A program made the translations under genes and the position numbers. This document shows positions 1,422-56,571 of a stretch of 64,000 nt of DNA, in pieces. Source of the DNA: Chondrosia reniformis (lineage: Eukaryota > Porifera > Demospongiae > Chondrillida > Chondrillidae). The notes under the pieces were generated by a model. It was not told the origin of the DNA. It searched no databases and worked only from the letters and a program-made list of their open reading frames with translations. Within the stretch, counting starts at the first letter, position 1; each line of letters starts with the position of its first letter. The stretch spans positions 8,432,001 through 8,496,000 of the forward strand of contig OX359190.1 of the NCBI GenBank assembly GCA_947172415.1. The letters are read 5' to 3'.

Positions 1422-1569
1422 AAATGAATTTTGGAAGTGGGTCTATTCCTAGTTAGCCGCTTTTTGAACGCTATAGAGCGTGTAGAGCGTCGAAACATGT
1501 TTTGGCATTTAGGAAAGCGTGCATTAATCGCTGCAAATAACCGAATATAACCGAAAATCGCTTCGTTGG

Positions 1570-1665
1570 CGATTTATGAGGTGTTGATTGCTAATACATT
1601 GGATAGGGCGGCCATTTTTTTTTCCGGCCATTCCTACTTAGAGAGTACTACCGTACTCTCTGATA
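1570..1665 (-). repeat. Copy of the CAGAGAGTAC interspersed repeat
   Basis: Read on the minus strand this begins TATCAGAGAGTAC, continues with the pairing TACTCTCT block, then AAGTAGGAATGGCCGG and GGCCGCCCTATCCAATGTAT, ending near a GAAGAAG tract. The same order of blocks occurs at 27788-27885, 29808-29845 and 31128-31225. It is a short non-coding repeat, probably a MITE or SINE; no protein is encoded. Confidence 0.7.
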
Positions 1666-3631
1666 ACCTCCGTATATGGGTATAACTTGGCAGAACTATA
1701 TATAAAACTTAGAACGTTTCTCACTGTTTGACCGTAACGATTAAAGATTCGGTATAAGCTTGCCAAATCTCGCGCCCATGCATACAAAATTCTTAGAGAT
1801 AATTTATCGCATGCATGACGATCTACATGGTGATGGCATATTAAAGAAACTCCTAGGCATTCGATTATGCGTGTAGGTAGATACTAAAAACTCGTAGGGC
1901 TACTAGCATAGTTATTTACAAAAGACGGAAATTTGTGGTTGCTCGAACTTCTCGTGTATAGACTCTATTAACTACCTAGGCTGTAGGTCAATTTGTCTAT
2001 GGCCTGTAATTAACCTCTTCTAACTAACCAAGTCTGCATGTATATCCCTAAATATATATGTAAATATCCATAAAGGCTGTAGAGTATCGCGTAAATTTAT
2101 AGTTATTTCCACGGAAAATATAATCTAGTCCTTAAACTTTTAGTCTTCGGATCTAAAGCTATAATAGCTATATATTCACTTTCTTACGAGTCGCGGATAC
2201 TCAACCTTATACATTCTGACGAATTTGCTGAGTTACATAATTATATATATGATCGCAGAAACCTTCAATGTGAAGGGGGTAGCTAAAAAGGTTACACTAT
2301 ACACGTTACACGTTTTAAAGCTGTAACAATTGAGTTTTAAATCGAATTAGAGAATACGAAAGTGCTCACCTGTTAAAAGCTTCCATATATGTAGACGGAC
2401 TCGGTCACGATATACCGATGAAGCTTATATATGTTACAGTTTAATAACTCTAACAAACACACGTTAAAGCATATTACCTCAAGTACTGTCCACTGGATGA
2501 AACCGGAAGATCTAATTAAAAGGTAAGAGGGGAAGGTGATAAAGATATGTAACACCTTTATAGGCGTGTCAGCGTGAGTGAGTGAGTGCATGCGACTTAG
2601 TATGCATTTACTCAGGCTAGCCTCTTAAATTGATCTAGGATATACATGGGAATTAGAGGTACCGGTATATATACACTGTTACGTTTTAGATACGTTTTGC
2701 AATTGCTCAGCAAGGGGAGAAACTATCTGTAGGAGATTTTTGCGCTATCGCAACTTTGTGTTACAATAGAACTAAAGGATAAACAAAGAGAGGCTTTAGT
2801 TTTAGCTCTTCAAAAGAGGGATATCTTTGTAGGCCTGTAGGAGGGATATCTTGTTTGTAGGGTAAAAGTAAGGTTACTGATACATATAGGATGGACATAT
2901 GTTTACTGAGAAATTACATTGCCCTAACTTGTATGGTTTTGTCTATGATCATGAATACATTCAAAGGTGAAAGTTCTTAATTGTGACCACAATGAGACAT
3001 AACATGCACTGAAGACACAGTTAAATTCGAAGCATGTAATGTCAGCTCTGGTAATTAATTAAGCACATGAAATTGTTTGTACTACATTAATTTGTACTGA
3101 CCCTATGGTACTAGGCTCTATAGCCATTTAATTTGCACATACCATATTTGTGTATTGCGCTAGTGGAACATGTCAACACTTCTATTTTACTTTAGAAACA
3201 TGGTATCATTAAACAAATTATATAGAATTGAAGTGCTATTCTTTCGTAATATTTTGCGTCAGAATTGCAGGCTTAAAGGAGGAGGTAAGCGGCCGTAAGT
3301 GATAGGTGCTAAATCGCCGAAAATGTTTTACCAGACAGTGGAAAATACGAAAATAGAATAAATGGTGACATCGATCTATGAAGACATGACAAGGCATGGG
3401 CTAATACTTGCGCAATATCACTATTTGATTTCGTCAGACCAGGCAATATGGACGTCCTTTCTATAGCAGCTCCCATTTGCACATGTATGTAAGTTAAAGG
3501 TTAAAGTGACTCGAGTCGATCATTTCTTTCATAATAATAGGCGGAGGATTAAATTAAGGGGACGATGAATAAAGGGAATTGTCTTAGAAGCATGCATCTT
3601 AGCTGTACCTGACACGAATCCTTAGCTTTAA

Positions 3632-6600
3632 GTGCTAAATCTAGGTGTCCTGCATGTTCGTATATATATAGTGTGGAGTACAAGCCGACATATAGATGTG
3701 GTGGAAGCTATCCATCTTCATTCAGAGACCTGGCCTGCAGCCTACCTGTTACTTGTGTCTCAGCATTTAAGCAGTGGTTCCCATGTTCTTCATTGGCAGT
3801 GTCTACTCAAGCAGTTAGGTCAAGTAGTGCTCTGTGACGATGGGAATGGTAGTTACATGAGGTCAGTCATTTTAAGATTATTGTGAAATTTATCTTTTAC
3901 AGGTCCTCTTATTATGCCTAATCCTTAGAATCCCTTTATATTCAATGTTGAATTGCAGTCAGAGAATTCAATTTCTTAGCCTTCTTTGTGAACACATAGA
4001 TATGGTGGATACTAACGCTCTTTATGGTTTCATTTCAACTTTGGACTCGTTTGCTCATCTATTGAACCAATGGGAGGCATTTCTGTTGAAGAAATTGACA
4101 AAATGTGTTGTACTAATGGAACCTCACCGGACAACAGAAGACATTGAAATTGCAAGTAAGTCACAAATAGAGAAATTTTGACAAACAGCCCAGTGGACCA
4201 GAAGAATATAGAAATGACTCTTGTTCTCTCATCCTAAGCTCTCACTAGGTTTAGTTCTCTATAAGCATGTTACTGTGGAATTGATGTAGTGTATAGCTAA
4301 TGGTGGTTTTACTCATGCACTGTGATAATTGAACAATAAACCATTTGATTGATAACATTTACTTTTGGGGAATTGTGTCTCTTTTTTAGAGCAAGAAGTA
4401 GATGAATGTGAAGAAAAGCCAAAAGAGTATTATTTTTACCCAGACCTTGTTGTAAGCTGTTGTTACACCTTGAGTTTAAGATTTCGTCAGAAATTGAAAT
4501 AATGATTGCTTTTGATTTTTATAAAACGATACTTAGCTTCACTGACAAACAATTGAAATGGAGTAAGATAATAAGAATTTTAGGACAAAATGATTGTTTC
4601 TTTGTTTCTGCTGTCATTCTCTTTCTTTTTATGATGTCTGCAGTGTCTTATCTTTTGACAACATTTTTCGACTTGTTGAGGGTTAAAGATTGGGTCTCCA
4701 GTTGTCCTAATTTTTTCAGGACCACATGAGATGAAATTGAAATGGCAGAATAGAGTGTCTATAAAAAAGGCAATTGGAGACCTTTGTATCCATTAGTCTC
4801 TGATGAAGACCCTCCGGGTTGAAACGTTTGACCAAAAAGATATATCAGAACTGTGTCTTTAGACCCTCAACAAGTCAAAAGATGTTCCATTTGATAGATA
4901 AGTTTGATGCAGAAGTATTATATTATGTTGACTTATAGGATACCTGTCAAAAGTTAGTAAATCAGTGGACAAAAAAGGTACATACATGTAATTGATTGTT
5001 TTTAAAGAGAAACATTTTAACATAATAACCTGTCAGTTTACGTATCCTGTATGTACATATTTGACATGCATGTAAGAACTATTTTTCGATGTACGTACGT
5101 ATGTATGTACTTACTTAAATCATTGTAGAAAGAGAGGATTTTGTTGACCGACGATGATTTGACCACACTCCTAAAACAAGAACCTGACTTGGTAGGTTGT
5201 TTATTGTTACCTTTTATGTTCAAGTACATGGTAATGTTACTTATTTATTCAGATCAAAGGTTACATAATCTGTCCATACAATTACTTTACATAGCCAGAT
5301 ACATGGTAGATGTGTGAATGACTGCTAATTTTGCATTTACTGATAGATCTTTGACATGTTTCGGAAGCTGGGACTGCCAAAACCAAATGATAGTCTGGCA
5401 CAGGAAGTATTAGCTTGGGTAACTAATTGAAATGCCCTATTTGGTATAGCAGTAAGACAAATACATACCGTATAGCCAGAAATATTGGCAGGGAATTTTT
5501 GGTGAATTGGCTATTTTCACACGAATCACCAAATTATGATCTGCCAATATTATTATTTCATCATAGTGACATAATCCATTGTGACATGGGTAACCACCAA
5601 AATTAAAATTGTCAATATCCAAAATCACAAATATTCTTCATGCCAATATTTCCGGCTATACGGTAGCAGGTATGTATACATGTATGTTTTCTTTTGTTTT
5701 ATAGTGTGTTATGTTGAAGGACAGTTTTTTATACTCTCCTGTTCCCAAACGTCTGCTTTCAGAGCTAGTCACTCCGGTAGTGAGTGTTGTATTTGTTTAA
5801 ATACATACATGTTCAAATTTACACAAATTTTGAAAGGGACAGCTAGTGTCTTGAAACAAGGTGCCTTATATATCCTCATCATTAATTCTGTATTTTATAC
5901 CACTCAATTATGTCTCTGGAGGAGCACATTGAACAATTGTTGTAACCAAAGTTCACTTGATGGGATCGTTGGTGCCTTAACGTATATCAGGAATTGAATG
6001 CATGTGACTTTACATACAACGGTGCCGTACTAAATTCTGAGCAGAACAGTAACAGAATGACATATGCAGCTTTATTGAACTTGAACTATTGCTATTCTTG
6101 CAAAATAGATATTAGGTGTAACGAATGTATTCCAGTGTGTTGCAATAGATTACCTTCTCTGTATCCTTCTCATCCAACATGTGTAGATCTTGGCTTCTAA
6201 GCAAATTTCTTCTGTAATAAAAGACCTCTCTGTCATTATGATACAGAAATCCAGACTTCTGTTCCTGCAGCAAATATTGGTACCAATGGTCACATGTCAG
6301 GTGTTTGGTGAGTGTAAAATACAAGGAGATCAGTGTGTGTACTGTGAACTGTACAGAACATTATAAAGTGTACCAGGAATGGTTGAGATCTGTACTATGT
6401 ATATGTATGACCGATGTGGCTGCTACCATTCCAATGCATCGATCAGGAGTACTTAATTTTACAAAATGGTATGTTCTACCCTTTTAATGTACCTACAGCA
6501 CACAATAATACACATGAGTATACTAATTTATTGAGACTCAGCAACAATTGTATTTAAAAACAAATTGAATATTTCGACCCGGAGGTCTTCATCAACATGT

Positions 6601-11423: not shown

Positions 11424-14400
11424 AACATATGTACATACCTCAAAGTTCACAGTGCCGTCTTGTCTCCTAAGGAATATTAAGTACATTTTACGTATGCATA
11501 CACACCATTCATTATGTAGAATTTGCGTCACTATAAAAATATAACATTCTGGTCTGAAATCAAAATACACCCAATGCTTTAAACAGGTGTGTGGTATAGT
11601 TGGCAATTCACCATATGTGAATTTCAGCATATCCAATATATAAGAAGACAGTATAGTATTATGCATGAAAGTTTACATCCATTGAGACACATTCCAAACT
11701 CACTTGTTTTTGTGGCACTCATTCACAAAGTAAATGTCTTTTATAAAAAGACTGAAAAAAGGGATAACGTATTCCTACGCAATAAAACAATACAGAATAC
11801 AGACTAAGGGTACTATAGAGATAGACAGTTGTATAAGAATGTTATTGTGACACAGAAATAACTGTGTCAAAGTGTTCTTTGGGAGGACGCAACCTTTGAG
11901 CATCTAGAGATAGACAGTAACATCTCTGAGTATCAGAGGTCTGTCAATAAAGATATGCTGTAGACTAGTGATAAAGGAAACACCTTTAGACCAACCAACA
12001 GTCACTGATGAAGACCCATATAGGGTCAAAATGTTCAACACTGGAATAACAACCTGTGTAACTGCATACGTATCTAGATGCTCAAAATGTTCATCAGATG
12101 CTGAAGATTAGTTTTACCATAGACTATCTACGTATGACAGATAATCTATGGTTTGATACAGATATAGAAGAAAGCATTTCTACCTTGTATGTACCATCTC
12201 AAAGATATGAAAATGCTATAAGAGTGATCTCTGGTCCATTTACAACATTCATAGTGTATGAATAATCAGAGTGATAATCAAACCACAAGTAATTATAATC
12301 ATTCTCAAAAGGGAAAAGCAGAAAGAATTGCCCATCATTGCTCTACCACTGAGCTACAAATGCAACAGCAATGCTCCCTTCATGTTTTCCTTCCTATACT
12401 AACTACAAGAAGTAACTAGTTGCCCTCAATAATTAGTGCATGTAATGTAGAGTGATGCAACCAACTGACAGATCTTCTCTTTTGAATGGAGTCAGCCAAG
12501 TGCTCCCGATACACAGAAAAGTTACTGCAAGGATCCATTAAATGCTGCAGAAAGTGAACATAATTTTCAAAGCTTGGTATAGTCAACCATACCAGACAGT
12601 ATTACAGACAACAAAATGCTCTTTAAAATACTCTTAACACAAAAATACATATATACGTAAGTACGTATATATGTATATATGTACATGAGGTTGTGTTTGT
12701 GAAAGATTATTTATATTTAAATATGCCAAGGATGGTAAGAACTGCACATTGTGATGACAATACTGACCTCCACTTCATGAAGTTTGTAGGACGGTATCTT
12801 TGAGAGTGTCTTCTTCAATCTGCTTACAGGAGTCATACTCGTAGCAGCTATGAAAATGGCAGAGGAATGGAGAAGATGTGAGAAAGGGAGAGGGAAGGAG
12901 AAGATGTGGGAATGGGAGAGGGAAGGAGAAGATGTGGGAATGGGAGAGGAAAGGAGAAGATGTGGGAATGGGAGAGGAAAGGAGAAGATGTGGGAATGGG
13001 AGAGGAAAGGAGAAGATGTGGGAATGGGAGAGGAAAGGAGAAGATGTGGGAATGGGAGAGGAAAGGAGAAGATGTGGGAATGGGAGAGGAAAGGAGAAGA
13101 TGTGGGAATGGGAGAGGAAGGAGGAGATGTGGGAACTGGCCAATTCTACATCTAGCCTCCTTCACCATTGTATACATACATACGTACGTACGTATGTGTG
13201 TTTATTAATTACAATATTTATAGTAGCAGCAGGCATATTAAAGACTGACTCTGGCTTACTGACCTATGATAGCCATGAAAGAGTTGTAGTTGTGTAACTT
13301 GATGCACTCCAGTGCCACATCTAAAAAGAACTCCAACAATCGATGTCTCTGTTTCTTTTCCGCCTGAAAAGTGAATCAGTAACAACATCTCTTACACTAG
13401 TTTAACATCAATCAATCATAATTAAGGCATGTTCACAGTTAGCATGTATTTCTGAATTATATATGTACGTACGTACAAATCAAATTGTGAATATAGTAGT
13501 GAATGTGTACAGTTACACAATTTTCCTACGTACTATGCCTACTCTGTAATAAATTAAAAAAATCCTATAACTAAACCTGGAGAGAGCTTTGAACATACTG
13601 TACATGACACACAATTTTTGAAGATAATGCAAAAGGCCTTCTTACTGTGCATATCTCCGTGGCAACCAGGGAACTGAATCTGTTAAACCATTCAACATAG
13701 GCTTCGATGTTTGTTGTCTTTTTAACATCAAAAAACTGTAAAATATGTGAGTTTAATATCATAGGAATATCAAGAGCTGTACAATCATAAGTTTTACATA
13801 CCTCTGGGTCTTTGGTGAATGTCTGAATGAATTCTTCTGGTCCAATGTTATTAATGCGCTCCTAGTAAGGAGAATTGACTGATAATGGCAGATTATTAAA
13901 GGGCACAAACACCCAGTTGTAACCATGGCAACCTACCACTTCAATATGAGTGAGCTGTCTTGCCATAAGAAGAGAGTCGTCACAGAGTGATAGGATACTT
14001 GGCGGTCCATGAGGATCAACTGAGAGCTCTAAACAGAGACGGTTGATTTCCAACAGAGCTTGCTCATACTTATCTAACACTGAGAGCTAAAAAAGAAATA
14101 AAATAGGAAGGATGAGAGTAAGGTTTTTCAAAGGAAAAGAACTGTGACAGGGAGGTGGATGGGGATTGTGAGAGAGAGGTGGATGGGGATTGAGAGAGGG
14201 AGAGAGAGAGGTGGTTGAGAGAGGTGGTTGGGGATTGTGAGAGAGGTGGTTGGGGATTGTGAGAGAGGTGGTTGGGGATTGAGAGAGATGGATGGGGATT
14301 GAGAGAGAGAGAGGTGGCTGGGGATTGTGAGAGAGGTGGTTGGGTATTGAGAGAGATGGATGGGGATTGAGAGAGAGAGAGGTGGCTGGGGATTGAGAGA

Positions 14401-17400
14401 GAGAGAGAGAGAGGTGGCTGGGGATTGAGAGAGAGAGGTGGTTGGGTATTGTGAAATAGCAGAGCTCCAGAGAATGACAAAAGAGGGTGTCAAGAAACAA
14501 ATAAAGGAGACAAATAGACTTGAAATAGGTTCAAAAGAGACAAAAGACTGATAAGAAGCCATAGTTTGATAGAATCTGAAAAATGAAAAGTATTTTTAAG
14601 CAAAAATGTTACAACAATTTGTTGATGGTGCTAAGGAGAGAGATCAAAGAGGTACATAAGGAGAGAGACTGAGAGTTCATGAATGCTAATTCAAAAATGG
14701 GGTTACTATGACACACCCATGGTCTCAGAAGACAGCTAGATGACTGTTTCAACCTGCTAACATAAACAAATCATGATGTTATTTGGCACAACTTTAGAAG
14801 TGGATATACAGTAAAGTAAGTACTGATTCTCAAATTGGAATTATTTCTACAGTTGCATATACCAATTAACCAATTGTAGGTTATTGTGAACTTGGCTTGC
14901 ATAATTGCGTCAGAGGGGTGCCTCTTATGTAAACAAAACAGGTGTACCTACTGGAAACATGACACTTTGTCTATTGCCCAAATAAGGAAATCACTGCAGT
15001 ATCACCTATAATATAGGTACGTATACTATGAATTTACATCAACTAATTCTCCAATTTGACTTAAAACAACAGACATACAACATACATAATTGTGTTTCTT
15101 GTCAAAATCTCTTCAAATACTTCAAGCATTGATTAAATTAAAGCCATAACACCATATGGTTTAATCTTAACAAAATTATCAGAAATACGTATCTTTTCCT
15201 TATAGAATTTGGTTTATTACTTTTAAATACCAGCCTGATCTTATTTCACTTAAATACCACTTCTCATTTCACTAAAACACTTGTGGTGCAACTATGTATG
15301 TATCACTATTGAGATTGAAGTACGTATATACTGTACGTACGTACTTACCTTCTGTATCAATCCTTGTACAAGTGTGCCACAAGATTTCTTTGTTTCCTAA
15401 ATTACAGGGAATCAAAATTTTGAATAAATACCTATCAGGATTACAAAGAACTATGTACAGTATATGTCCTTATTGATTTGACAGCTAACATTGTTGTCAA
15501 AGAAGACCAATGAAACCATGCAAATAAAGAATAATTGAAATATAAGATATCACAGATTTAATAATTTAGTGTTTGGATTTCAAATTGAGAGACATTCATA
15601 TCTCAATTGGACAACGGTCAATTGTCATATTGAACAAATGACTCAAATTACAACAAATTGAGATATGAATGTACAGTGAAAATAGGTCACTTTCATCAAA
15701 AGGCTCCAAGTATTAGTTATTACGCTGCTGTCATGTTACCCTGTGACTTAAGGACAGACAGTTAGTAAAGATAGGCCAAGCTAAAAATCTTTACTAGAAT
15801 ACTAGCTGCATTCCACACATACTGTTGAAAGAGCTGATAGCTTCTTAGTAACATCCCGTAGTACTCTCATCATGCGTTCTTCTCTGAAATCATAAGAAAA
15901 CAGTTCTGTCCAATCACTGTACACATTGAAGAGTAACAAGTAATGACATCAGGCACTTAGTAGGGCCAACATGAATAATCCAAGAGATAATCACACCACA
16001 ACTGTTTAATTATCATGTACATACAGCAGCATTCAGAGGGGGTAAACTTGAAAGAAGCAGATGAGAGAATTAAGACTACTAGTAGTAGCAGAAGATTGTC
16101 ATAACTGTTAGATTGGGAAGGCCTCCTTATAGACCCACCTACGTATGTATGTGCATATGCACATTTACTGTAGCATATAGTAAATGTAGGATTCAAAAAG
16201 TTCAAGAAAAGGACAAAGATTCCCTGGGTCACTGATGAAGGGTGGAATTCCCAGAAAGAGCTGTCTGGCCTGGTGGAGAAGAAGAGAAGTAGAAGGAGAA
16301 ACTATTGTATCCTCATCCCAAGCTCTCACCAGGTTTAGTTCCTTATATACTTTTTAATTTATTAAAGAGTAAGCATAGCATGTAGGAAAATGATTATTTA
16401 CGTATATATGTACCTATTACGTATATATGTACCTATTACGTATATATGTACCTATGTAGTACAGTATTCATTGTAATACATAAACCCAAGAGTGGTATAT
16501 GTACGTATGTAGGATACCATATATTTATGTATTCACATGAGACTACAAGTGTAGTGCAGATGTTTAGGCAGAAAGTTTTCCCAATTGATGAGATCAAACT
16601 GCTAATTCCATGTAAACAGTTTGTCATATTAAATACACACATTAGCATTTCCCAAGAAGTGTTACTTCAATAACATGGACAACAATCTAACAGCTTTAAT
16701 GGTTTACAAAATTACTGCAATTAACTCTTTTGTCAAGTAATACCTTCATACGCCATCATGTACGTACGTATATAACCCATTGTTCATAATTATTTAAATG
16801 ATAATGTATAATTGATCACTTGGCTGGTTTGGCATAATATATTTCAGTGATTATTTACAACAAAGATAAAAAATAAATACGTTTGTGTGGCAATTATGGT
16901 AAAAAAATTCTGTTTTACCTATAGGTTTGTTATAATGTATATAATTCTACTCTTTCTAGACAAAACATTTACATGGAAATTAGAAGGAAGGATTAACCAA
17001 ATTAAGAAGTTTCAGTCTCAAACCTTGTGTTAATCTCCTAAACACTTTCACTGTACCACTATGAATAATTAATTACCTGAGAAGTTGAAGGATATTGGTT
17101 GCTAGGGAACCAGAATCTTCTGAAGATGGAAGTTGATCAACTTTACAGTTCTAAAAGGAAACAGGAAAATAACATACCTAGTTAATGGTCATTTTAGTAC
17201 AAGTTTGGCTTTAGTAGTCTAACAATTCAGCAATAATCTTCTCAAGGCTGTTGAATATGTATACATGAAACTTGAAGCTACGCATCTGACCAGATGTTCG
17301 TGGTATTACATAGTTAGTGAAACAGGGAAACAGGACTAGTGTTGGGTGATTATGTAAACATTAATCAAACTGTAATCCAAGTATTGTACATACATACTGT

Positions 17401-20400
17401 AAAAATATCATATGCCGAATGTACGTACTATCTATGTATTGCAAGTATACCATGGTGATACGTAATTTTGGGATAATAGAGTAAGGATTCCTTCTAACTA
17501 CCTCGAACTTATCTTTAGAAAGGGTCATCTTTCGACTCTTAAAGCGTCTAAGCAAGAAAAACTGCGTCTTTAGACACTCTAAAAGTCAAAAGATGACTCT
17601 TTCTAAAGATAATTTTGGGATATTTGTCTTCAAATTTCACAAGTCAAACAATTGTGGTTTCGTAAAAAGTGAGATGTGTAAGTGTAAAAATTATGTACGT
17701 ATATATATGTGAAACGTTAGCTATGTAGGGTTCACCCTGATGATCTTGGAGAGAATATCAAATGGTGGAGTGAACAGTCGGGAGCACAGAATAAAGGCAA
17801 AAAGGTAGGTCCTCTGCAAATAAAATAAAAAGGAGAATGGAAATATTACATATATGTAGGCATGCTGAACTGTGGATCACGTAAACACTATAAATACGTA
17901 AAATTTTCAAGGTGACAAAATGTAAAGAAGTTGCAGTTAATAAAATATAATACACTTCTACACTAATGCATACCATATTCCAATATATAAATAAAAAGAA
18001 AACATGGCTGTCAGTCCAGAGATCTACACTATAGTTAGGTCTAGAGCATCAAGACTTACATCAGGTTGGAGTTTGGAAGTAGGTTGAAGGAGCTGAATTA
18101 AGGCATCCATTGTGCCAGACACCAGAACCCCTTCGCGGAAGACTAGCCCCTGCAGTCAGTGACATATATGTAAATCACATACGTATGCATGTATATATAT
18201 ATATATAAAGAGTCAAATATAAGCAAAAGTAGCTAGTATGCTTAAGGACTGTCTTGTGTTACCTCACACTGTCTTAGTTAACACCTTATTCACTTTTTGG
18301 TGCCAAAACTGTGTATATACAACCCCAAGATTTGGCACAGAGCGCCAAGGATTCACAGAAGATCAAAGATTCCCTGGGTCACTGATGAAGGGTGGAATTC
18401 CCAGAAACAGCTGTCTGGCCCAGTGGAGAAGGAGAGAAGTCGGAGAAAATTCTTGTGTCTTCATCCAAAGCTCTCACAAGGTTTAGTTCCCTATACGTAT
18501 GTAGGCCTTTACTCTTAAGTACGTAGATGTAGCATGCAAGAAAAATGGTGTGTTACATAGATTATTCATATATGCATACATACAACATGGCAGGACTATT
18601 TGTTACCCTCATTATGACAACAAAGGTATATTTAATGAGCCTTGGCAACACACATTGAAACAGTGATTGCTGGTACTCAGTACAAATGTCTGCACTTTAT
18701 ATGTTAATAATTTAGGGCCAGTTGAAACGTGAAATCAATCCTATTGATATGAATAACGTGAATAACATTTGTGAATTACACCCAGAAAAAGAAGCAATTG
18801 TGGTTATGAAAAAATGTACGTACGTACATCCAATTAGAGAACTGTCATTTATAGACAGAATGATTATACTCGCATTAAACCCTACTGACAAGAAATTTAT
18901 AAATATTAAAGTCAAAAAGCTCATGTTAAGGGAATAATATTATATAAATAATGAAATACATTCTTTTCCCATTAGAACATAGTGCTTCTCATTAAATATA
19001 ACTTCTTTCAAGTGAGTGAAGTGAAGTGCAAACTAGAGGCAATGCGGAAATCTCCAAAATCAGTAAAAATACTTTAATATTTAAGAACTCCTAGATTAAG
19101 AAATCCTCATTCTTTCAGAATAAAACATAAAGTTTAATCAAGATGGAATCTTCAAATTCAAGATGACAATGCAAATGGTATATAATATGTACAGTGCATA
19201 GTACAAAGCCCTTCTAGCAAAGTCTATTGCATCAAGACTTAGGGACACTGTACACCATACCAGAATATAAATTTTATTATTTGCTTAATAAAATTTATAT
19301 TATACCGTGGTATTATAGACTTTGCTAGAAGGGCTTTGTACTATGCACTGTACATATTATATACCATTTGCATTGGTTACCACAACAGAATGAAAGTTTA
19401 CATAACAGAGGCTAGTAATAACAATGTCTGAAAAATATGCATACAGTATTATACAAGAGCTGCAAATCTACGTATGTAAGTATCCGAATCAATAGAGTGG
19501 CAACCTCCAAATTACAGTCAGCTCGTAAGGTCCCAGCAAAGTCATACGTATATTGGGCTGTACATACGTAAGGATTTTTATAATACAGCCACCTCCCTAA
19601 TAAGGACAGGTTCAGCTGGCCTCAAGACGACCACAAGCCAACCACATTAGACTGGTTTCAATGTATCTATATGTAGCTTAAATTTGATTATATGTGATTT
19701 CATGTGATTACATACCAGATCTATGTACCTACATACCTCAATCCCTTTAGCATGAGAGAGTCTCGGGACTTGAGAAGCATCAACATAAAGTTGGTTGTCC
19801 ATGTCATCGTCACCTTCAACTGGTTCACTGGCCCCATTTCCATTATGAACAATGTTATAAACTGACGGCCTTCTCTTTACTGCAGGCTTAATACCAAAAG
19901 CAGGAAGGCTTCGAGATGGCTGTAGAGTATTATAAATTATCACAGAGATACTACATATTCTGGATACTTATTGAACACACTTAAAATTTGCTAACAAGAA
20001 TTTATATTTAACAGGAAGTTAATGGTAATATATACCACGTTTGTGTACCATACTTAATTAGTACTGTGTTTTGTAACCTACATATATAGTCTGTATAGCA
20101 TGAACCTAAACAGCTTGCCAGACTTAACAGAGGCAGATTTAGGAGGATGCTCTAAGCCAAACTTTGTATTAGTCCTCCCTTCGTTAACAGGTATAGTATA
20201 TATTGTATGTACATCAAAGTTGATACACTAATAATTCAATTCAGACAATGTATAGCTAGAGTTGATTTCTTACTCTAATTGGCTTCTTTTTACTGATAGC
20301 TACAGTAGCCATTTCATTTAACTCTCTTGACAGCCTATCAAATTGGGCTCTGATACGCCTAAATATTTATATACAAGAACACATATTAGTTATACAGTAT

Positions 20401-26300: not shown

Positions 26301-29300
26301 TGGTGAACGATGATGATGATGACAGCTTTCAGGAGTCCAGAGTAAACTCCCTTGTTGAGATAATGAAAGAGAACAAAAAACGTCATCGTTCTTCAGAAAA
26401 CATCAAGGTAGAATAGATTTATTTTGATCATGCACATAAATGTTTCTACTGTGAATAGGAATAGGATATCTATACATAATATTTACTCCAATATACAATA
26501 ATTACAAGTGAATAATATCTGTAGCGCACTGTAAAGGCGGTCTTTGATCATTCCATTTTTGGTGAGAAAGTGGTTGTCGCTGACATTTTGGAAGTAGATG
26601 AGGAGGGTGACCTACCAAGTAGCAAGAAATTTTCTCTTCAAGGAGGAACTGTGATTTCACATTTGACTAAAAGCCTGGGACTAGTAAGTTTGAGCATACA
26701 AATCCATCCAGTTTAATATTTTAAGCAAGTAGAGCTCATGTCATGCACAACACAAATATTGTATTCCAATAAAGATGCCATTTCCTAAAAAGAATGTATA
26801 TACATACACTATATATCTTACTTGTGTACATATACGTACGTAACAGCCTTAAGCTTCCTATATATAATTTTAGTTTTATTATTATAATCTTCCTCATATC
26901 TAGTGCCTGGCTCTGGCTGATCATAAGACCCTTAGAACATATGTCAATTTCAAATGGAAGCAGTTTGCGGCCTTCTATTACTGGTTTGTAACTGTTACAG
27001 CAATTAATAACTTAACTTCAATAAAAATAACATATGAATCATATATCAGTTAGGGATTAATTATGGGAAAATTACAGAGTTACAGATCTGAGGTATTAGA
27101 ACTCTGTTTTGTTCAGTGGTTTTGGCTGAGATTTCGTGTGGATTGATTCACTAGGTCTCTGATGGAGATATGAAGAAATTGTGAATTCAGCACTGAGAGA
27201 ACCATGCACCACACCCCTTGGACTGGACAACACCAGATACCACACCCACCAGCATCAGTTCACATCAGATCCTAGTCCAAGCTACTGATCATGAACAATA
27301 TACAAATTATACAAAAATTGTGCAATATATACAGTAAAAGCCTTTACGTATATATAACTACGAATGTACAAGATGTAGTACATTTCTTATGTGTGTATAT
27401 TATTACATACAACACACGTTTTTCTGTGTATTTATATATTTAAGCTATAATATGTCTAAGTAGTAAATACCTATATATATATGACATGTAGTTATGTAGT
27501 CCTTTTCACACATTACAGGCGTGACCTTATCTTTTACCTCTTCCAAATGATCATGCTGACCTTTGCCCTCGCCATTGCTGCTCGCCCTTCTGTTACTGAT
27601 GCCACTCTGAATGATTACCACACACCACTGGATATCTGGAGAGCCGTATGTGAATCCTTTATAATTTTGATCTGTGTTGCGAAAGCCTTTGATGAGCTGA
27701 AGGAAATAATAACGTAAGATCAAAAGGGTATATACACAGAGTACTCTTCTGTAAATAATGTATTATATGTTTTTAATATATATTATGTATCAGAGAGTAC
27801 GGCAGTACTCTCTAAGTGGGGATGGCCGAAAAACATGGCCGCCCTATCCAATGTATTATCAATTAACACCTAATAAATCAACAGCGATAAGATTATTATT
27901 ATAGGAGATATGTTAACTATATTATGTTATACTAATTTTAAAGTCTCATATACGTATGCATGTATTTAATATATATAATATATTCATAATGTGGCCATAC
28001 AATGTGTGTATATAATTCTACAGTGTTGGACCAGTCCTGTATGTACGTGATTGGATGAATTATGTACAGTGGGCTGCCTTGATCCTGACCCTGATGATAA
28101 TTCCTTTCAGAGCCACCAACCACCCAGGACAATGGATCGTGGCCTCATTGGCCTATTTTGCTCATGGCTTGAAGGCCTTTGAATATGCTACCCTATTTAG
28201 GTAATACACATATGTAATACACATATATAATATTACAGATATTGATCACTTGTATGGTGGTCAGGTGTATTATACTCCAAGTGATTATTCCTATCACATC
28301 ACGGCCTGTACAGGCTTAGCACAATCAACTCCCTTTTCAATACTACAGATATATCTTTAGATAAAAATTATAATACATTGTACGTACATTTGAATGAAAA
28401 AATAATGTACGTATATAGCTTTGGGGCTGAATCTCTAGTAAATCTAAAGATATGAATTTGTAACTTGGTAGTAATACTCCCAGACAATGTACACATGGAT
28501 AGTATGTACACATGAATAGGTGTATTATATAGTATAAGAAAATGTGTTATTCTCTTTGTTCCATGAAAAATCTAAGATACCATTTTCCTACATGCTACAT
28601 GCCTATTCTGTAAAAGAGCCTATAGGGGAACTAAACCTGAAGAGAGCTTATTAATAAGCTTTGGATGAAGATACAGGAGTATTTTCTTCCTTCTTTCATC
28701 TTCTTCTCCACTGGGTCAGACAGCTGTTTCTGGGAATTCCACCCTTCATCAGTGATCCTGGGAGTCTTTGTACATGTCTTTTTCTTTATCTTGATCTTCT
28801 GTGAATCCTTCCATGTAATATTGTGTACATATTTACAAAACTATATGACTTTTGTAGTATAGCTATTATACATGTGCAATCAAAGATAATGTCATTCTTA
28901 GGTTGACGGGATCATACCTTCAAGTTATCATGATCATCATTCGTAAGGACATCACAAAGTTCCTTGTTGTGTTTGGCCTCTTGTTGTTAGTATTTGGTGG
29001 TTCTCTCTACTTTGCTCTGAGATATGATGAGACAGGCACAACTAGCAGCACTGACCAAATGAGACTGGATGGAGATGGAACGTTAGTGTAATCCGCATGA
29101 CTATTATATATACTTGAATATTGTTAATCGAACCAAAAGTAGGTGTAGGTTAACATTAAATAATTTTATAAATAGAGAAAATTACCTCAGATCAAGTAGA
29201 ACTATTATATTTGAACAGTTTCCTTGTTAGTAATAAATTAACCTATATATGGATAAGCTAGTTGTAAAAAGTTTTGTCTGAAGAAGCCCAAGTCGGAGAA

Positions 29301-34241: not shown

Positions 34242-40112
<5,871 letters not shown>

Positions 40113-44500: not shown

Positions 44501-47500
44501 CATACTGTACATACGTACGTAGGTCTGCAAGGTAGAAGCTACTTAAGGTGATCAAGTCAAATCCCTGTGTAGGAATGGGGAGAGGGGGTACTGTAGAAAG
44601 GATATACATAAATAGAAGGGTCTTGCACAGGAATAATTTCCTAAATTTTCCTGAAAAATAAGTATATTTCTTTAAAGACTTTTTGCTCTTTTTTCCAATA
44701 GAAAACATGGCATATCTAAATCTCCACATTTCTATCATTGGCTTTGCCATACTTATGTCTAATGTTTTGCCTACGTACTTCTCAACCTACCATTCCTTCG
44801 TATCCATGTGGTAACAACATCACCAGGCCACTTTGCCTGGACCACTTGTCCTGTCCACAGCTGATGAACTGGTCAATGATGCACTGAGCATTGTTATGAA
44901 AGTCCCCAAATTGTGCCTCCCAGCATATCAGGGCATTGGGCTGGCTCTGGCTGAACCCAAGTTCAAATCCTAAATTGGAAGTTGATATTGAACATATGTA
45001 ATTAACAAATCTTATTCTACAATAACACTATCTCATAGAATGAGATTCATACTCATTAATTTATGGATCCTCCTAGCCAAACAGGAGTTTTGCACATATA
45101 TATCAGGTACATACTAAGAAAATGAGTAATGTAAGTACATCATAATAGAAAGGCTTCAACTTAAGCTTCCCGAACACTGCCATTTGCAAAACATATAAAG
45201 TGTTATAACAATTGTGTATGAACCTATATTATAGACTTACCTATCTATTATCTACATAAGCGACAAGCATAACAACCAGAGGTAAGAATCAAAATAATAT
45301 AGGGGCTCCTAAGGCATGCGTATGTACAGTAGGAAGTCGATTATCCAAACTTGTTGGGACTGGAGGGTGTTCGGATAATCGACTTCCAACTGTATACTGT
45401 ACTCTGTTAAATGTCTACACTCGTGGTTGCCCCTCAGCAGGAAGAGGCTATTCCTGTAGTGCAACTTGAGAGTCCAGAGGTATAGCACACACTGAAGAAG
45501 AGAACTGTATACGTAGTTACTTACCCAAGACAGCAAACTCAGAGAGGGAACTGTTGCAGACGGTGTATGGTGCTTGGTTGGGATAGAGACTGTTGAGAGG
45601 ACTGTACACCCTCGTGTCCACTTTCTGGTCATGCAGAATATGATGGCGGTGGCTGAAGGGATTGGAATAAGGTGAGTACACACTGAACTAAGGATCTACG
45701 TAAGGATTCAAAGACACTGGATCACTGATGAAGGGTGGAATTTCCAGAAACAGCCGTCTGGCCCAGTGGAAGAAAAGAAGAAAAAGAAGACTTCTGTATC
45801 CTCATCCAAAGCTCTCACTAAGGTTTAGTTGCCTATAGGTTTTTAAATTTAGCTTTGAAATATGAACCTTTCAAAAGTTAAATTTGGTGCTGTTAGAAGA
45901 AACCCTTATTCTATTGGCTTTTACAGAATAGGCATAGCATGTAGTATGCAAACCGTATACCAAGGATGCTTTGTATCTTCAGCAGAAAAGAGTGTAAACC
46001 TGCATCATAACTATCTATCTATGCAGGCCTCTGAAGTAGGAAGGTAACAGAGAACTTTACAATTTTAACAAGTGGTTTGGAATTACAAAAGTTCTTGATG
46101 GTTTATCCATGAAGGTCATTCAGGTGGCCATTAATTGAAACCAAGTCATAAACAAGCCACTTTCCTAGTCAAGGATATCAAAAATGAATAAAAGTCTCTC
46201 ACTGACCTAAATGTTCCACGCTCCACATCTTGTCCGCTGAGTCTCACATGAAAGTTCTCCTTCAAGAGGGAGCCAAAGGCAAATGCTTCTCCCATTGCCC
46301 AATCTGCCTCTCCAATCTTTAGCATTTCTGTTCTCTGCTTCAGTGTCCTTAGCAAGCCTTTGTTATCAAAGAAACAACACTTTAGAGAGTATAGCAAGTG
46401 AAATATTTAAAATTACAAGACACTATATACGTACGCGCGTAAAAGTAAAGTATGGAAATACATAATTGAAACCCGATAAATAATATATAAAATACTTAAA
46501 ACCTCACCAGTGTGAACTGTAAAATCTTTGAATTCGACCTCTCTTGGAGGAGAACTGAAGACCTCGCCAATATGCTTCAAGACATCCATTGATATACCCG
46601 TTGGCTTCATGCTCAAAGGAGTGTTTGGGGGAGGAAAGAAACCTACACAGGTGTAGCATTGAGGTAACAAAACAATATTAACAGGAATTTTCTTTCCTCT
46701 CCCACTCCTGTCATATTCCTCTACCTCTCCCTCCCACCCCTGTCATATTTCTCTCCCTCCCCTGTCATATTCCTCTCCCTCTCCCTCCCACCCCTGTCAT
46801 ATTTCTCTCCCTCCCCTGTCATATTCCTCTCCCTCTCCCTCCCACCCCTGTCATATTTCTCTCCCTCCCACCCCTGTCATATTCCTCTCCCTCTCCCTCC
46901 CACCCCTGTCATATTCCTCTCCCTGCCACCCCTGTCATATTCCTCTCCCTCTCCTCTCACATTCCTTCTCCATGCATATTTTTTTTTTTACTTTACTATT
47001 GAAAAGATTGAAAACTGAAGTGGACATACTATATGTATTTCCTAAACATGACAAATGCTGTAGAAGATATACCGTATGGACCTAAATTTTCGCAGGACTA
47101 AACTTTCACGGTTTTTGCAGATTGGCAGCCATCCGTGAAAGTTTAGTCCCACAAAAATTTAGACTATAATTATAGAGCTTTCAAATTGCAAGCGAATTAC
47201 CAGGTACGACCATTTTAGAACGCGATAACGTCATAGTTTGCAATATGGCTACCGTGAGTGAGGAAGCATCTGCGAAAATAAAAACGCGAAAAACCGAAAA
47301 CCATGAAAGTTTAGTCCCGTAAAAATTTAGGTCCATACGGTAATACATACGTACCTCAAGCATGTACTAACCTGCCCACGGAGAGTCCAGCCAATCCTTA
47401 TTACGCAGACTTCCATCATCTCTGCTTTTTTCATAAGCATCCTCACAGAGTTTATCATATTTCTTCATTTCAGTCTAATTGAAGGACATTACACATGCAA

Positions 47501-50500: not shown

Positions 50501-52089
50501 TTCCCACTAGTATGACATCACCATGCAGTGTGAACCTTTTTACTGATTACCAATTGCAACATCAGGTCTAGACAACCAACCCAAAAAGTACTGTATAATA
50601 AAATATATTGCAATTGTGCTCTTATTACATGCTTATTTACTGACAACATTAAAGCCACCTACACAATCCAACATTCATGGGAATGAGGTCATTGGTTTTA
50701 TCCTTGAGATTGATCTTCAGTGGGTCTTGATTGGCAGCATTGTGAGCCCGTATCTGAGGTGAAAGGGGAGAAGAAGATGGCAACCAAGGTGCATACACTG
50801 TCCTCAGCGAGCGCACCCTTCAGATGTGAGCGGCAGAGCCCATATCTGAGGACACAACAGAAATGAATAATCTAAACACACCATTTTCCTATAGACACAT
50901 ATGTACCATTTTCCAACTTATAATCCTTATCCATTTCATAGAAAGTATGCACATAGAAGTTTTTGATACATTATACGTAAATATGCAACACTTTGTATCC
51001 CAGTTCATTACTCACTTGATAGGATCTGATTAGTGAATTAACTATCAAGTGATCCTTAATGTCCTGGGTAATATCAATTCTGTGAGCAGTCGAGCTACTC
51101 GGTGAAGATAGGGAGCTTGACAAGGATGAGTGGGCTAAAGTAGGCGGGGACTGGTAGGCCTCACCCGGCCCCGCCCCCTTGGCAACCTGACTGAAGTACA
51201 CGTCCCAAGACTACAATAATAGAAGGTTCTGTGAAGTGCTTCACATGAATAATTTAACACTCCATATTTCATACATGCTACATCTACGTAGAGTAAAGGT
51301 CTATAGGGAACTAAACCTAGTGAGAGCTTTAGATGAGGATACAATAATTTCCTCCTTCTCTTCTTCTCCACTGGGCCAGACAACTGTTTCTGGGAATTTC
51401 ACCCTTCATCAGAGATCCTGGAGTCTTTGTAATGACTGTTTACATGCACACATAAACAGTCTACAAAGCTGATGACAGTATAACATTAAAGACAGCCATA
51501 AAAGAGAAATAAGAATAACATCCTTTACTAGAGGCCTGGAACTGTAAGTTATGACTTTAGTTGCTCCACCCAGAGTACCAAGAGTAACAAATAGATGTTT
51601 ATAAGAGGGAGAAGGAGAAACTTTTATCTTTCTGTCTCTCTTCTCCTACATATACAGGGCCGCTACCCATTTAGCTAACTAAGAACTACATAGGTGGACT
51701 ATCATGTACTGAATGGTGTACATTCTGTGTGAGCTGGAATGAATAGCTACAATAACAAAGGGTCTGAGGAGTTACAGTCTGGACACATAAAATTGTCTAT
51801 TTTCAAGCGATAGAGAGTTAGAATAAGGTATATAGCATAAGAGAATATCGAGAAGCAATTAGGCAATGTATATCGCTACCTTGTGCACGCTGTTTGGGTC
51901 CTTCTGCCAGGCGTCGTACATCATTTCAACATAGACACTACTACTTCCGCTTAGAAACGGCTCTGCCCCAGCCAGGGCGGCATTGCCGGGGTTCTTTGCG
52001 CTCGTGCTAGTCCACCTATAAAATAAGTAAGGTCTGAGGAAGGTTTTGCGCACCATCGACCACAGCTGACCAGTCTCGAGACGTAGCAT
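41570..52089 (-). CDS. OGDH: 2-oxoglutarate dehydrogenase E1, mitochondrial
   Basis: Thiamine-diphosphate E1 of the 2-oxoglutarate dehydrogenase complex (TCA cycle, mitochondrial matrix). Twenty exons: 52089-51880, 51210-51016, 50753-50663, 50383-50212, 49604-49457, 49055-48882, 48582-48474, 48177-47645, 47474-47372, 46642-46508, 46357-46207, 45652-45525, 44969-44791, 44395-44324, 43871-43761, 42547-42475, 42394-42291, 42178-42125, 42000-41852, 41672-41570. They sum to 2,994 bases, 997 residues, close to human OGDH (1,023). Residues 1-35 look like a transit peptide. Landmarks: [33 protein letters not shown]; the ThDP block [13 protein letters not shown] with [83 protein letters not shown]; and C-terminal PATGNKKSH. 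The gene is head to head with macroH2A. Confidence 0.97.
41771..41827 (-). repeat. Partial duplicate of an OGDH exon start
   Basis: About 55 bp here match 41958-42009, the acceptor and first half of the exon encoding [14 protein letters not shown]. The duplicate keeps TTTTAG/ATATCCCCATTCCC but then runs out of homology with no donor in phase. It lies in the next intron, 188 bp from the original. Confidence 0.8.
42786..43170. repeat. 21-bp minisatellite
   Basis: About 18 nearly identical units of CCAGTCACCTATTCCACATC plus C. A period of 21 keeps every frame open, so long heptapeptide-repeat frames appear on both strands. It is in an OGDH intron between 42547 and 43761. Confidence 0.97.
45328..45392. 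mobile_element. Tiny pogo/Tigger-like MITE
   Basis: ACAGTAGGAAGTCGATTATC at the left and GATAATCGACTTCCAACTGT at the right form inverted ends around about 20 bp. The GATTATCC end resembles pogo/Tigger-type ends. Intronic in OGDH. Confidence 0.65.
45700..45870 (+). repeat. Hammerhead-bearing repeat in an OGDH intron
   Basis: TAAGGATTCAAAGACACTGG, core, GTGGAAGAAAAGAAG, CCTCATCCAAAGCTCTCAC, AAGGTTTAGTTGCCTATAGG. The adjacent block 45860-45915 (AAAGTTAAATTTGGTGCTGT and GAAGAAACCCTTATTCTATT) belongs to the hairpin family near 17490 and 54900. Confidence 0.7.
45715..45768 (+). ncRNA. Putative hammerhead ribozyme, second copy
   Basis: Stem I CACTGGATCA (45715-45724) pairs with TGGCCCAGTG (45759-45768), nine of ten positions including one G-U and one A-C mismatch. 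Core CTGATGA at 45725-45731, stem II 45732-45746, GAAA at 45747-45750, stem III AC/GT with loop AGCC, and GTC ending at 45758. The stem I change relative to the 18374 copy is largely compensated, which supports a real fold. Confidence 0.6.
46690..46965. repeat. CTCCCTCCCACCCCTGTCATATT minisatellite
   Basis: Irregular tandem units of 20-32 bp (CCTCTCCCTCTCCCTCCC, ACCCCTGTCATATTC) in an OGDH intron. Confidence 0.9.
47070..47343. mobile_element. MITE with TACCGTATGGACC ends
   Basis: ACCGTATGGACCTAAATTTT at the left and AAAATTTAGGTCCATACGGT at the right are inverted ends. An internal pair, GGACTAAACTTTCACGG with CCGTGAAAGTTTAGTCC (47095-47148), adds a second hairpin. Same terminal ACCGTAT as the element at 5466. 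In the OGDH intron between 46642 and 47372; no coding capacity. Confidence 0.8.
49766..50190. repeat. 13-bp minisatellite GGCTGGTGGAGGA
   Basis: Over 30 units, some shortened, in an OGDH intron. Because 13 is not a multiple of three, all frames stay open; the Gly/Trp/Arg and Pro/Ser frames seen here are not genes. Confidence 0.97.
50760..50826 (+). pseudogene. macroH2A exon-3 footprint in OGDH intron
   Basis: Sixty-seven bases match macroH2A exon 3 (58272-58338): TGAAAGGGGAGAAGAAGATG, then CATACACTGTCCTCAGCGAG, then CGCACCCTTCAGATG. It directly abuts the acceptor of OGDH exon 3. The bases GAGCCCRTATCTGAG flank it on both sides, so the acceptor and exon start of OGDH exon 3 are present twice. 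It has no start or splice sites of its own. Confidence 0.85.
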
Positions 52090-53159: not shown

Positions 53160-54641
53160 CATTTACAAGTAGTTTTACCTCATTTGTAGTGTATTGTATT
53201 TCCTTAGATTGGTTTTATGCATCTGCTAACAGTTATAAATTATGTGTAAGTGTACACCTGTGTGTGATTTACTAATAGTTGAGAAAATCTAGAATTAGTT
53301 TTCTTGTTTTTGCTTTGCACATCAAAACACCTCAACACCTTCTTTAGTTTTCAACAGCCAGAATACCTGACTAACATGGCACATTTTGCCTCATTTACGT
53401 AAATCTTAACATTGACAAATTGACTAGTACATGTAATATAATCTTGAACAATGTACGTACGTACGTACGTATGTATGTTTGTAGGTATATGGGTAGAAGT
53501 GAGGTATTTGTCACCCATTTGCATATATTGTCTTAAAGGAGGTGAAGTGCTCTCTGATATTGAGACATTTAAATCTACATAGTAAAACTTAAATTTTCTT
53601 TTGCTCTAAAGCTACACAGTGCATTATTGTATTAAGCCATATGACTAATATACAGTGTATATTTCAATATACTGTAGAACACTTATACCTATTGACTCCT
53701 GTATCCTCATTCAAAAGCTCTCTTCAGGTTTAGTTCCCCTATAGGCTCTTTTACAGAATAGGCATATAGCATGTAGGAAAATGGTATCTTAGATTTTTCA
53801 TATGTAGTTTTATATTGACTCAAGGCCCCAGTTTGGTCTTGTATTTATATAGCATGTGTCACTTTAACAGTTATTATTATATGAGTATTACCCTTTGTCA
53901 TCTTTTTATTTTAGCTTCTCAAGAATGTGACCATTGCACAAGGAGGAGTATTGCCCAATATCCAGGACGTGCTCCTGCACAAAAGGTCCGACTGGACTAA
54001 ATTGCAGAAGGGAACAACTTCAAAGCCACTTCCTGTAGCTGTCTCTCCACAATCTCCGAGCAAACCTAAAGGGACTCCAAAGAAACGAAAGGTACTGCTG
54101 TGACTACAGGCAGCACTGTTATTTGCTCATGCAGTATTCTCTGCATGATATAGCATAGAATGTCTGTACTAAGTACATTGTAGTAGTCAATATTTGGTAG
54201 TTGTTAACATTCTGAGGTTAGTGAAGCCATTTTGTTTTTAGTGTGATGCATCTGATGGCTCTGAAACTAAACCTTTCAATAGACATAATGTCTACTCATT
54301 TTGTAATTGAACAACTGCATCTATTATCTGTTTCACATGCTGTTCATATTTCATACATACGTATTAACACACATACAATATGTATGTCTATATTAATACA
54401 CATATATTGCTTTAATATATCTATATTAATACTGATACAATACATATAATTATATGTACATATGTCTATATATTAACACACATACGTACATTACATATGT
54501 AATACATATTTAGCTATTTCAATTAGTTATCTAGCTATTGTAGTACTGTTGCTTGATTCTTAGGGCAGTGCCTCAAAGAAATCTGCAAGCACCCCCAAAA
54601 AAGGCAGGGCCAAGAAGAAAAGAGCTGAAAGAGGAGAATAA
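52269..54641 (+). CDS. macroH2A-type histone copy lacking the macro domain
   Basis: Exons 52269-52553, 53915-54091, 54564-54641, giving 179 residues. It encodes the full H2A fold ([60 protein letters not shown], then [20 protein letters not shown]) and the basic linker ([26 protein letters not shown]), then stops at TAA 54639-54641. At that point the intact copy at 56752 reads GAA and continues into the macro domain. The downstream bases are still recognisable exon 3 (TGTCCTCAGCGAG) for about 40 bp, missing about nine bases, then the sequence switches to OGDH intron at about 54683. It is the truncated product of a tandem duplication. It may still encode a usable H2A-like protein, since the whole histone fold is intact with few substitutions relative to the other copy. 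Confidence 0.85.
52880..53158 (+). mobile_element. SINE-like insertion ending in (TAA)n
   Basis: Present in intron 1 of the truncated macroH2A copy and absent from the same intron of the full copy. Contains GCCTGGTAGCCTTAAGTGGC twice (about 52938 and 53004), CTGGGCGGATGG, and ends GGCACTTTAATAATAATAAT. Other CACTTTAATAAT or CACTTTAACAGTTATTATT ends lie near 48340, 53865 and 57535. Confidence 0.5.
53700..53790 (+). repeat. Hammerhead-family repeat, 3' end only
   Basis: TCCTGTATCCTCATTCAAAA, GGTTTAGTTCCCCTATAGGC, GCATGTAGGAAAATGG. Matches the far end of the 28550-28830 copy. Absent from the equivalent intron of the full macroH2A copy. Confidence 0.65.

Positions 54642-55411: not shown

Positions 55412-56571
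<1,160 letters not shown>

Follow-up and report, generated by a model that had tools for sequence, protein, structure and literature searches.

Copies of a leader repeat in the sponge Chondrosia reniformis and a probable genomic footprint of hammerhead ribozyme cleavage

We analyzed a 64,000-nucleotide stretch of the genome of the demosponge Chondrosia reniformis (contig OX359190.1 of assembly GCA_947172415.1, positions 8,432,001 to 8,496,000 of the forward strand), hereafter called the window. The window contains copies of a dispersed repeat that carries a type I hammerhead ribozyme motif, and the copy at 18311–18574 (+) is the starting point of this study. A preliminary description of the window, made from its letters, had read a hammerhead at 18374–18423 and had assigned the host repeat to a sponge retrozyme-like family. 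The letters are as described and the hammerhead within a sponge retroelement is confirmed here; the assignment to retrozymes is not. On our reading, which we consider quite likely, a GIY-YIG Penelope-like element (PLE) has this repeat as its 5′ leader, a fraction of its transcripts is cut by the ribozyme in vivo, and reverse transcription then uses the cut RNA.

Hammerhead motif of the repeat

Direct reading of the letters placed a type I hammerhead motif at 18376–18421 (+), with the core order CUGANGA ... GAAA ... UH and three stems in the type I arrangement. Stem I is formed by GGGTCA (18376–18381) and TGGCCC (18416–18421), extending to eight pairs in this copy (18374–18423). The catalytic core CUGAUGA (CTGATGA in DNA) lies at 18382–18388 (+) and is followed by stem II (18389–18403, +), which consists of an A-A mismatch at its base (18389/18403), GGG paired with CCC (18390–18392/18400–18402) and the loop UGGAAUU. 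The segment GAAACAGCUGUC at 18404–18415 (+) supplies G12–A14 (GAA, 18404–18406), a two-pair stem III (AC/GT) with an AGCU loop (18407–18414) and C17 (18415), so that the predicted scissile bond lies between 18415 and 18416 (GUC/U). In the consensus of the repeat family, stem I comprises six pairs (one of them G-U), a 2-nt AG bulge and then three pairs (CCA/TGG); this bulge is reminiscent of the one in natural type I hammerheads.

We also searched the whole genome (117,379,552 bases in 15 contigs) with the Rfam model Hammerhead_1, and 51 of the 73 scored matches were above the cut-off. From 18 other hammerheads of this genome, 12 of which score above the Rfam cut-off, we built a covariance model, R1, that contains no sequence of the repeat family. 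When the window was searched with R1, the motif at 18376–18421 ranked first (E 1.4e-6, 29.1 bits), and the top six of the 31 listed matches were six copies of the repeat, the weakest two of them at E 0.036. The core CTGATGA of the window copy is present in 15 of the 18 aligned hammerheads, the remainder having CTGACGA; the 13-mer GAAACAGCTGTCT is shared by 16 of the 18 and the window copy, and the segment at 18404–18415 is identical in 16 of the 18. The genome has 305 occurrences of the exact 34-mer core of the ribozyme and none of the same letters read backwards. Because R1 ranks six copies of the repeat at the top and the 13-mer is shared, the window motif is, judged by its sequence, a relative of true hammerheads and not a chance pattern.

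5′ ends of the copies and the cleavage site

The repeat was defined from 29 aligned copies taken from 30 loci, with one locus (L023) left out for want of an anchor. It has about 265 conserved positions, a sharp common 3′ end, GATTATT(CAT), and ragged 5′ ends. A copy model of 267 positions was made for nhmmer searches; the copy at 18311–18574 covers model positions 4–264 (E 4.1e-70), and model position 120 is the base that directly follows the predicted scissile bond. It was at exactly this position that three matches, one of them weak, were first seen to start among the flank copies.

We therefore sampled copies with queries anchored at the 3′ side, which begin near model positions 128–130, so that the sampling is independent of the upstream sequence. 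Two of the anchored queries were truncated copies, for which 67 of 80 places were sampled; the remainder were the 2 queries themselves, 10 earlier-sampled copies running through the ribozyme (with starts at or before model position 59) and 1 overlap (C6:110361). The control query was a copy that extends past the ribozyme, and its 40 places comprised the query itself, 16 places already in the sample, 20 new ones and the 3 lowest, which were omitted. Taking the best match per locus, starts at position 120 were found in 11 of 67 places for the truncated queries and in 4 of 20 for the control query. When all 39 non-self places of the control query were considered, 36 had a known 5′ end, of which 20 fell within model positions 42–145 and 5 at position 120, two of these five having a common flank.

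The 3′-anchored copies and the flank copies were pooled, with neighbouring copies included and ends sharing the same 12 nt upstream counted once, which gave 122 observable 5′ ends. Of these, 71 lay within model positions 42–145, and 16 of the 71 were at position 120, against an expected 0.68 (binomial p 1e-17); 5 further starts were at 121 and 2 at 119. By set, the starts at 120 amounted to 10 of 40 for the two truncated queries and 4 of 13 for the control query. We excluded matches with E>1e-3 (for example L016 369–430, which starts at 120 with E 0.0054), ends no more than 11 nt from a sequence edge, and matches of fewer than 80 positions in short loci. In L148 and L156 the best match falls on a neighbour that stands head to head with the copy sought, and the copies sought start at 120 and 117, respectively. 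None of the 115 copies obtained with ribozyme-containing queries starts at 120, as follows largely from the way they were selected, and they stand outside this test.

Truncations were also simulated. The end caller hit the exact base in 207 of 600 cases, and it placed only 4 of 600 at position 120, so the pile-up at this position is not an alignment artefact. Because the 5′ ends pile up at the scissile base, cutting by the ribozyme in vivo is probable, as is reverse transcription of the cut RNA.

A second cluster of 5′ ends was found at model positions 33–41, which hold 22 of the 122 ends, and the 115 copies from ribozyme-containing queries also peak there (49 of 115 at model positions 30–39). 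A TATA-like element with the consensus TATATAA occupies model positions 7–13, that is, 26–34 bp upstream of this cluster; in the window copy it is seen in decayed form at 18314–18320 (+). This distance is about the spacing expected for a TATA-directed start, and thus the ends at 33–41 probably mark the start of transcription.

The coding element that carries the leader

A genome search for the GIY-YIG domain (PF01541) gave 150 scored matches, many of them in long frames. At locus L228, a full copy of the leader (2713–2994, model positions 4–264, E 9.7e-66) with its ribozyme (2795–2840, R1 E 2.1e-5) stands upstream of such a frame, the ATG of which is 125 nt past the leader end. In this open reading frame (ORF), GIY-YIG occupies residues 102–135 (E 8.2e-5, 23.3 bits, cut-off 22.6). 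Two loci on two other chromosomes, L229 and L230, are 100% and 99.4% identical to L228 over 361 bp, retain the ribozyme and stand upstream of GIY-YIG matches in 997-aa frames.

A downstream piece of 166 aa (L233), also in a 997-aa frame, contains motifs that by eye resemble the reverse transcriptase (RT) of PLEs. A search with this RT-like piece gave 150 scored places, among them eight identical ones, five of which are in 997-aa frames. Of the 150 GIY-YIG matches, 43 have the RT-like piece 1.0–2.6 kb downstream on the same strand, the distance being exactly 1281 bp in 24. In one 997-aa frame, GIY-YIG residues 102–135 precede by 1281 bp the region that we read by eye as RT. Judged from these frames, the leader belongs to a young multi-copy element, most likely a PLE with an N-terminal endonuclease. 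This arrangement would correspond to that of the Naiad-type PLEs, which have permuted domains.

Several other features were observed around the leader. The palindrome TTTTGGCGCCAAAA stands at L228 2697–2710, just upstream of the TATA box, and is found exactly in L022 too; several copies that reach further upstream have variants of it before the TATA box. It resembles an E2F site. Upstream of the L228 leader there is also a satellite (L228 1–2114) with a unit of about TACATACAACTAG, and similar sequence flanks the leader of L022 on both sides. The upstream side of L022 is the same as that of L228. In the consensus of the repeat, an open frame of about 60 aa was seen by eye.

A model for the origin of the copies

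We propose the following course of events. The leader would provide a TATA-type start and the hammerhead, and the GIY-YIG domain would precede the RT-like region in one frame. Reverse transcription would begin within the leader, some 130 nt upstream of the ORF, and would proceed to the 5′ end of the RNA; the resulting leader-only copies would be pasted in with the common 3′ end GATTATT. The template would set the 5′ end of each copy: the transcription start (model positions 33–41), the cleavage site (model position 120) or an early stop. The hammerhead would act on a portion of the transcripts, whose 3′ cleavage product would serve as a regular template. Finally, both target strands may be primed and extended, which would leave pairs of copies with their 5′ ends facing each other. 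On this model the leader-only copies would all derive from the RNA of this element.

Such facing pairs were found at six loci (L148, L156, L178, L184, L216 and L225), the two copies being separated by -13 to 57 bp; neighbours on the same strand all lie further apart. Four of the 16 starts at position 120 belong to head-to-head pairs, two in L216 and one each in L148 and L184. The sampled stretches lie mostly upstream of the matches, so that tail-to-tail pairs were scarcely detectable; one was seen (L027, gap 26). By analogy, the facing pairs would fit priming on both target strands, and the common 3′ end about 130 nt before the ORF would fit an internal start like that of PAc, a PLE of the lizard genus Anolis that is discussed below. 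In L216, both copies start at position 120 with TGCA between them.

The role of hammerheads in PLEs is called unknown in a review (PMC7761336). Copy ends at the scissile base would, if the reading is true, be genomic evidence of cutting within the animal and of insertion of the cut RNA, and the abundant short repeat would be explained as a by-product of internal initiation. Both ideas become counts that are feasible on any genome with such elements. If true, the share of copies beginning at the scissile base would give a reading of ribozyme activity over evolutionary time. A real, if atypical, hammerhead in a PLE leader is of a known kind; the novelty here lies in the footprint that the copies leave at the cleavage site and, provided that our reading holds, in cleaved RNA serving as a template. 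Taken further, the genome may be a fossil record of cleavage in vivo, in which a permuted PLE with an A-A hammerhead yields an uncapped 3′ product that templates short interspersed element (SINE)-like copies seeding the chromosome arms; this fuller statement we favour by a modest degree of confidence.

Observations that weigh against the proposal

A number of results weigh against cleavage and reuse of the cut RNA, or against parts of the proposed element, and we gather them here. As for the motif, the eight-pair stem I that the preliminary description reported is present in the window copy but is private to it, arising from a private change, and the family consensus is the bulged stem given above. 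The A-A at the base of stem II, correctly described as atypical, is present in 172 of 178 copies and recurs in the L228 leader. At this place (10.1–11.1) G-C is usual in hammerheads, although not absolute, and A-A is expected to weaken the ribozyme. The Rfam search that had been suggested as a check found 51 hammerheads elsewhere in the genome, but no match at the gathering score in the window, and the copy at 18376–18421 searched alone gave no hammerhead match with the threshold relaxed to E 10. Within the family, tests for covariation, the lack of which the preliminary description had named as a refutation, and for mutual information were likewise negative: there were 8 pairing double changes against 6.4 expected, and slid versions were alike. 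This is as expected of neutrally decaying copies, and the family copies do seem, from their sequences, to decay in this way. The support for the hammerhead comes instead from the R1 comparison and from the 5′ ends of the copies.

As for the 5′ ends, the flank copies are the least selected set, and of their truncated starts (model positions 42–240) 2 of 28 are at position 120 (p 0.009). The earlier-sampled copies running through the ribozyme were not recounted, which makes the fractions per set slightly too high and leaves the test within 42–145 unaffected. Target duplications around the copies gave a weak signal: those of at least 6 nt were found in 14 of 181 copies (shuffled mean 5.5, maximum 12), and those of at least 5 nt in 23 of 181 (shuffled mean 14.3, maximum 24).

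As for the coding element, the leader was found upstream of GIY-YIG at three of the five loci examined, and the other two (L231 and L232), which lie upstream of GIY-YIG matches of another type, are without it; thus the leader belongs to one family among several. Searches of the 166-aa L233 piece against Pfam and NCBIfam found no RT domain, and a search of the Protein Data Bank (PDB) with the RT-like piece gave a single match at E 0.45.

Finally, for PAc, an Anolis PLE of the Poseidon group, it is reported that mutation of the hammerhead leaves insertion in vitro unimpaired and that the cleavage site is neither the start nor the end of any read (PMC11167929). At least for the sponge element, its genomic copies speak for an outcome in vivo that is unlike that of PAc in vitro.

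Alternative explanations

Another possibility is that the repeat is a stand-alone SINE-like element derived from the PLE leader, whose own promoter-bearing copies are transcribed, mobilised in trans and still cut by the hammerhead. The number of copies is in its favour: depending on the query, first-look searches of the genome gave 1521 to 3278 candidates, which are not confirmed copies, and the exact core occurs 305 times. The chromosomal distribution also agrees with it. Matches to the element body were in the 30–60% zone of the chromosomes in 129 of 150 scored cases, whereas only 10 of 85 exact leader cores on C1–C4, and 4 of 39 places in each of two leader-copy searches, were in that zone; the scored lists hold best matches only, so some bias is possible, and the exact-core list is complete for C1–C4. 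Long copies thus gather mid-chromosome and leader copies in the arms, which would reflect either selection or a difference in targets. However, 117 of the 122 copies start past the TATA box (model position 14 or later) and could hardly be sources, and the same leader is intact in young copies of the PLE. We therefore regard a stand-alone element as unlikely.

Position 120 might also be something other than a cleavage site: a second start of transcription, a site where RT halts, or the former 5′ terminus of a short ancestral element. The ends that we measured are genomic and not those of RNA, and the two main queries for the junction were themselves truncated copies, both of which leave room for such an origin. 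However, the control query, taken from a longer copy, still gave 5 of 36 starts at 120. No TATA stands some 30 bp before this position in the consensus, nor an AG acceptor at the junction, and a stop caused by structure would be expected, on general knowledge, at the outer edge of stem I and not at the scissile bond. Position 120 also coincides with the very base predicted by the motif. We consider these origins very improbable, and cleavage by the hammerhead remains our preferred explanation of the pile-up.

The preliminary description had favoured a metazoan retrozyme, that is, tandem units cut by neighbouring hammerheads and spread as circular RNA. The repeat has a similar size, and other hammerheads of this genome do form three same-strand pairs 354–355 bp apart. 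In the repeat family the arrangement is different. Among 255 matches in 211 sampled sequences there were 14 neighbour pairs within 400 bp, only 4 of them on the same strand; these had gaps of 221–387 bp of unrelated sequence, and none was head-to-tail. Because close same-strand neighbours are lacking, there are no tandem units in this family. Furthermore, the 3′ end of the repeat lies outside the ribozyme, and the sequence of about 265 bp leads a GIY-YIG coding element, which makes a retrozyme hardly credible. A chance resemblance to a hammerhead can be practically dismissed: folding by minimum free energy gave no excess stability (z-scores -0.67 to +1.44), and Rfam and covariation were negative, but against these stand the R1 E-values, the core and 13-mer common with other hammerheads, and the pile-up of 5′ ends.

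Comparison with known systems

PLEs with a hammerhead in the leader or in a pseudo-LTR (long terminal repeat) are known, and the leader position is found in the sponge element as well (L228–L230). The closest comparison is with PAc, for which an internal start of reverse transcription near the junction of leader and ORF is described, with both target strands cut and extended in vitro (PMC11167929). The two have in common a GIY-YIG element, a type I hammerhead near the coding start, internal initiation and two-strand priming, the latter two being our reading of the sponge copies. They differ in that the sponge element has an N-terminal GIY-YIG and a probable RT start before the ORF; its hammerhead has a two-pair stem III with a tetraloop and A-A at stem II; and the ends of its copies point to the use of cleaved RNA, which is not seen for PAc.

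The non-LTR retrozymes of metazoans (PMC7229834) resemble the sponge repeat in being short, non-coding and present in many copies with a type I hammerhead. One of them, HHR_Amex2 of the axolotl, likewise has a mismatch at the base of stem II (U-U) and shows weak cleavage, 22% in one hour. Unlike these, the sponge repeat has no tandem units or ribozyme-to-ribozyme monomer, has a TATA-like element, and has its 3′ end outside the ribozyme. The SINE-like SMalpha retroposons of schistosomes (PMC8490949) also have dispersed copies with an internal type I hammerhead, but the sponge repeat is the leader of a PLE. In R2 elements with a 5′ HDV-like ribozyme (PMC3774820), inserted copies have their 5′ end where the ribozyme cleaves, as proposed here. 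The ribozyme is a different one, however, and in the sponge the leader would lose roughly its first 80 nt on cleavage, which only part of the copies show.

Copies of the repeat in the window and their flanks

The preliminary description had counted at least six further copies in the window, and our search agrees, with 10 copies in total at E<1e-3, six of which have the whole ribozyme. Besides the copy described above, the other five are at 28561–28811 (-; model positions 39–261, ribozyme 28713–28758, R1 E 8.5e-6), 45684–45845 (+; model positions 34–210, ribozyme 45719–45764, R1 E 5.7e-4), 16160–16400 (+; model positions 15–249, ribozyme 16226–16271 with a mismatch in stem III, R1 E 0.013), 51242–51431 (-; model positions 66–262, ribozyme 51373–51418, R1 E 0.036) and 55590–55787 (-; model positions 66–262, ribozyme 55728–55773, R1 E 0.036). 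In the second of these, stem I at 45715–45768 had been described as differing in sequence but still pairing; this pairing has to be qualified, as it includes an A-C mismatch. The copies at 51242–51431 and 55590–55787 have a common 5′ flank, which indicates a local duplication within the window.

The other four copies are truncated at the 5′ side. That at 37979–38092 (+; model positions 122–249, E 1.4e-37) starts two bases beyond the first base after the cleavage site, and that at 4172–4311 (+; model positions 98–254, E 2.9e-20) starts within the ribozyme; truncation near the ribozyme, as noted before, is thus found in the window. The remaining two are at 53695–53805 (+; model positions 156–263, E 2.3e-17) and 13514–13592 (-; model positions 172–246, E 1.4e-6).

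We also compared the flanks of 57 copies after masking of the repeat copies themselves. Adjacent sequence was common only to L028 and L064 and, in inverted form, to L063 and L074; beyond these, the comparison, made for a larger common element, showed only more distant repeats. L028 and L064 are duplicated gene loci with 92.6% similarity across 700 bp downstream, and they have the leader insertion and its flanks in common.

Other hammerheads of the genome

A search with Rfam Hammerhead_3 gave none above the cut-off among the 46 matches listed, and in the limited literature listings consulted we found no report of sponge hammerheads. The Hammerhead_1 matches at the loci that we read are of two types, A (GCCATA ... 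TATGGC) and B (ACCACA ... TGTGGT), and the three same-strand pairs mentioned above, all above the cut-off, belong to them (loci L031–L050). These canonical hammerheads are possibly true retrozyme-like repeats, distinct from the family in the window. At about 1450–1570 of locus L041, two type B hammerheads stand head to head on opposite strands.

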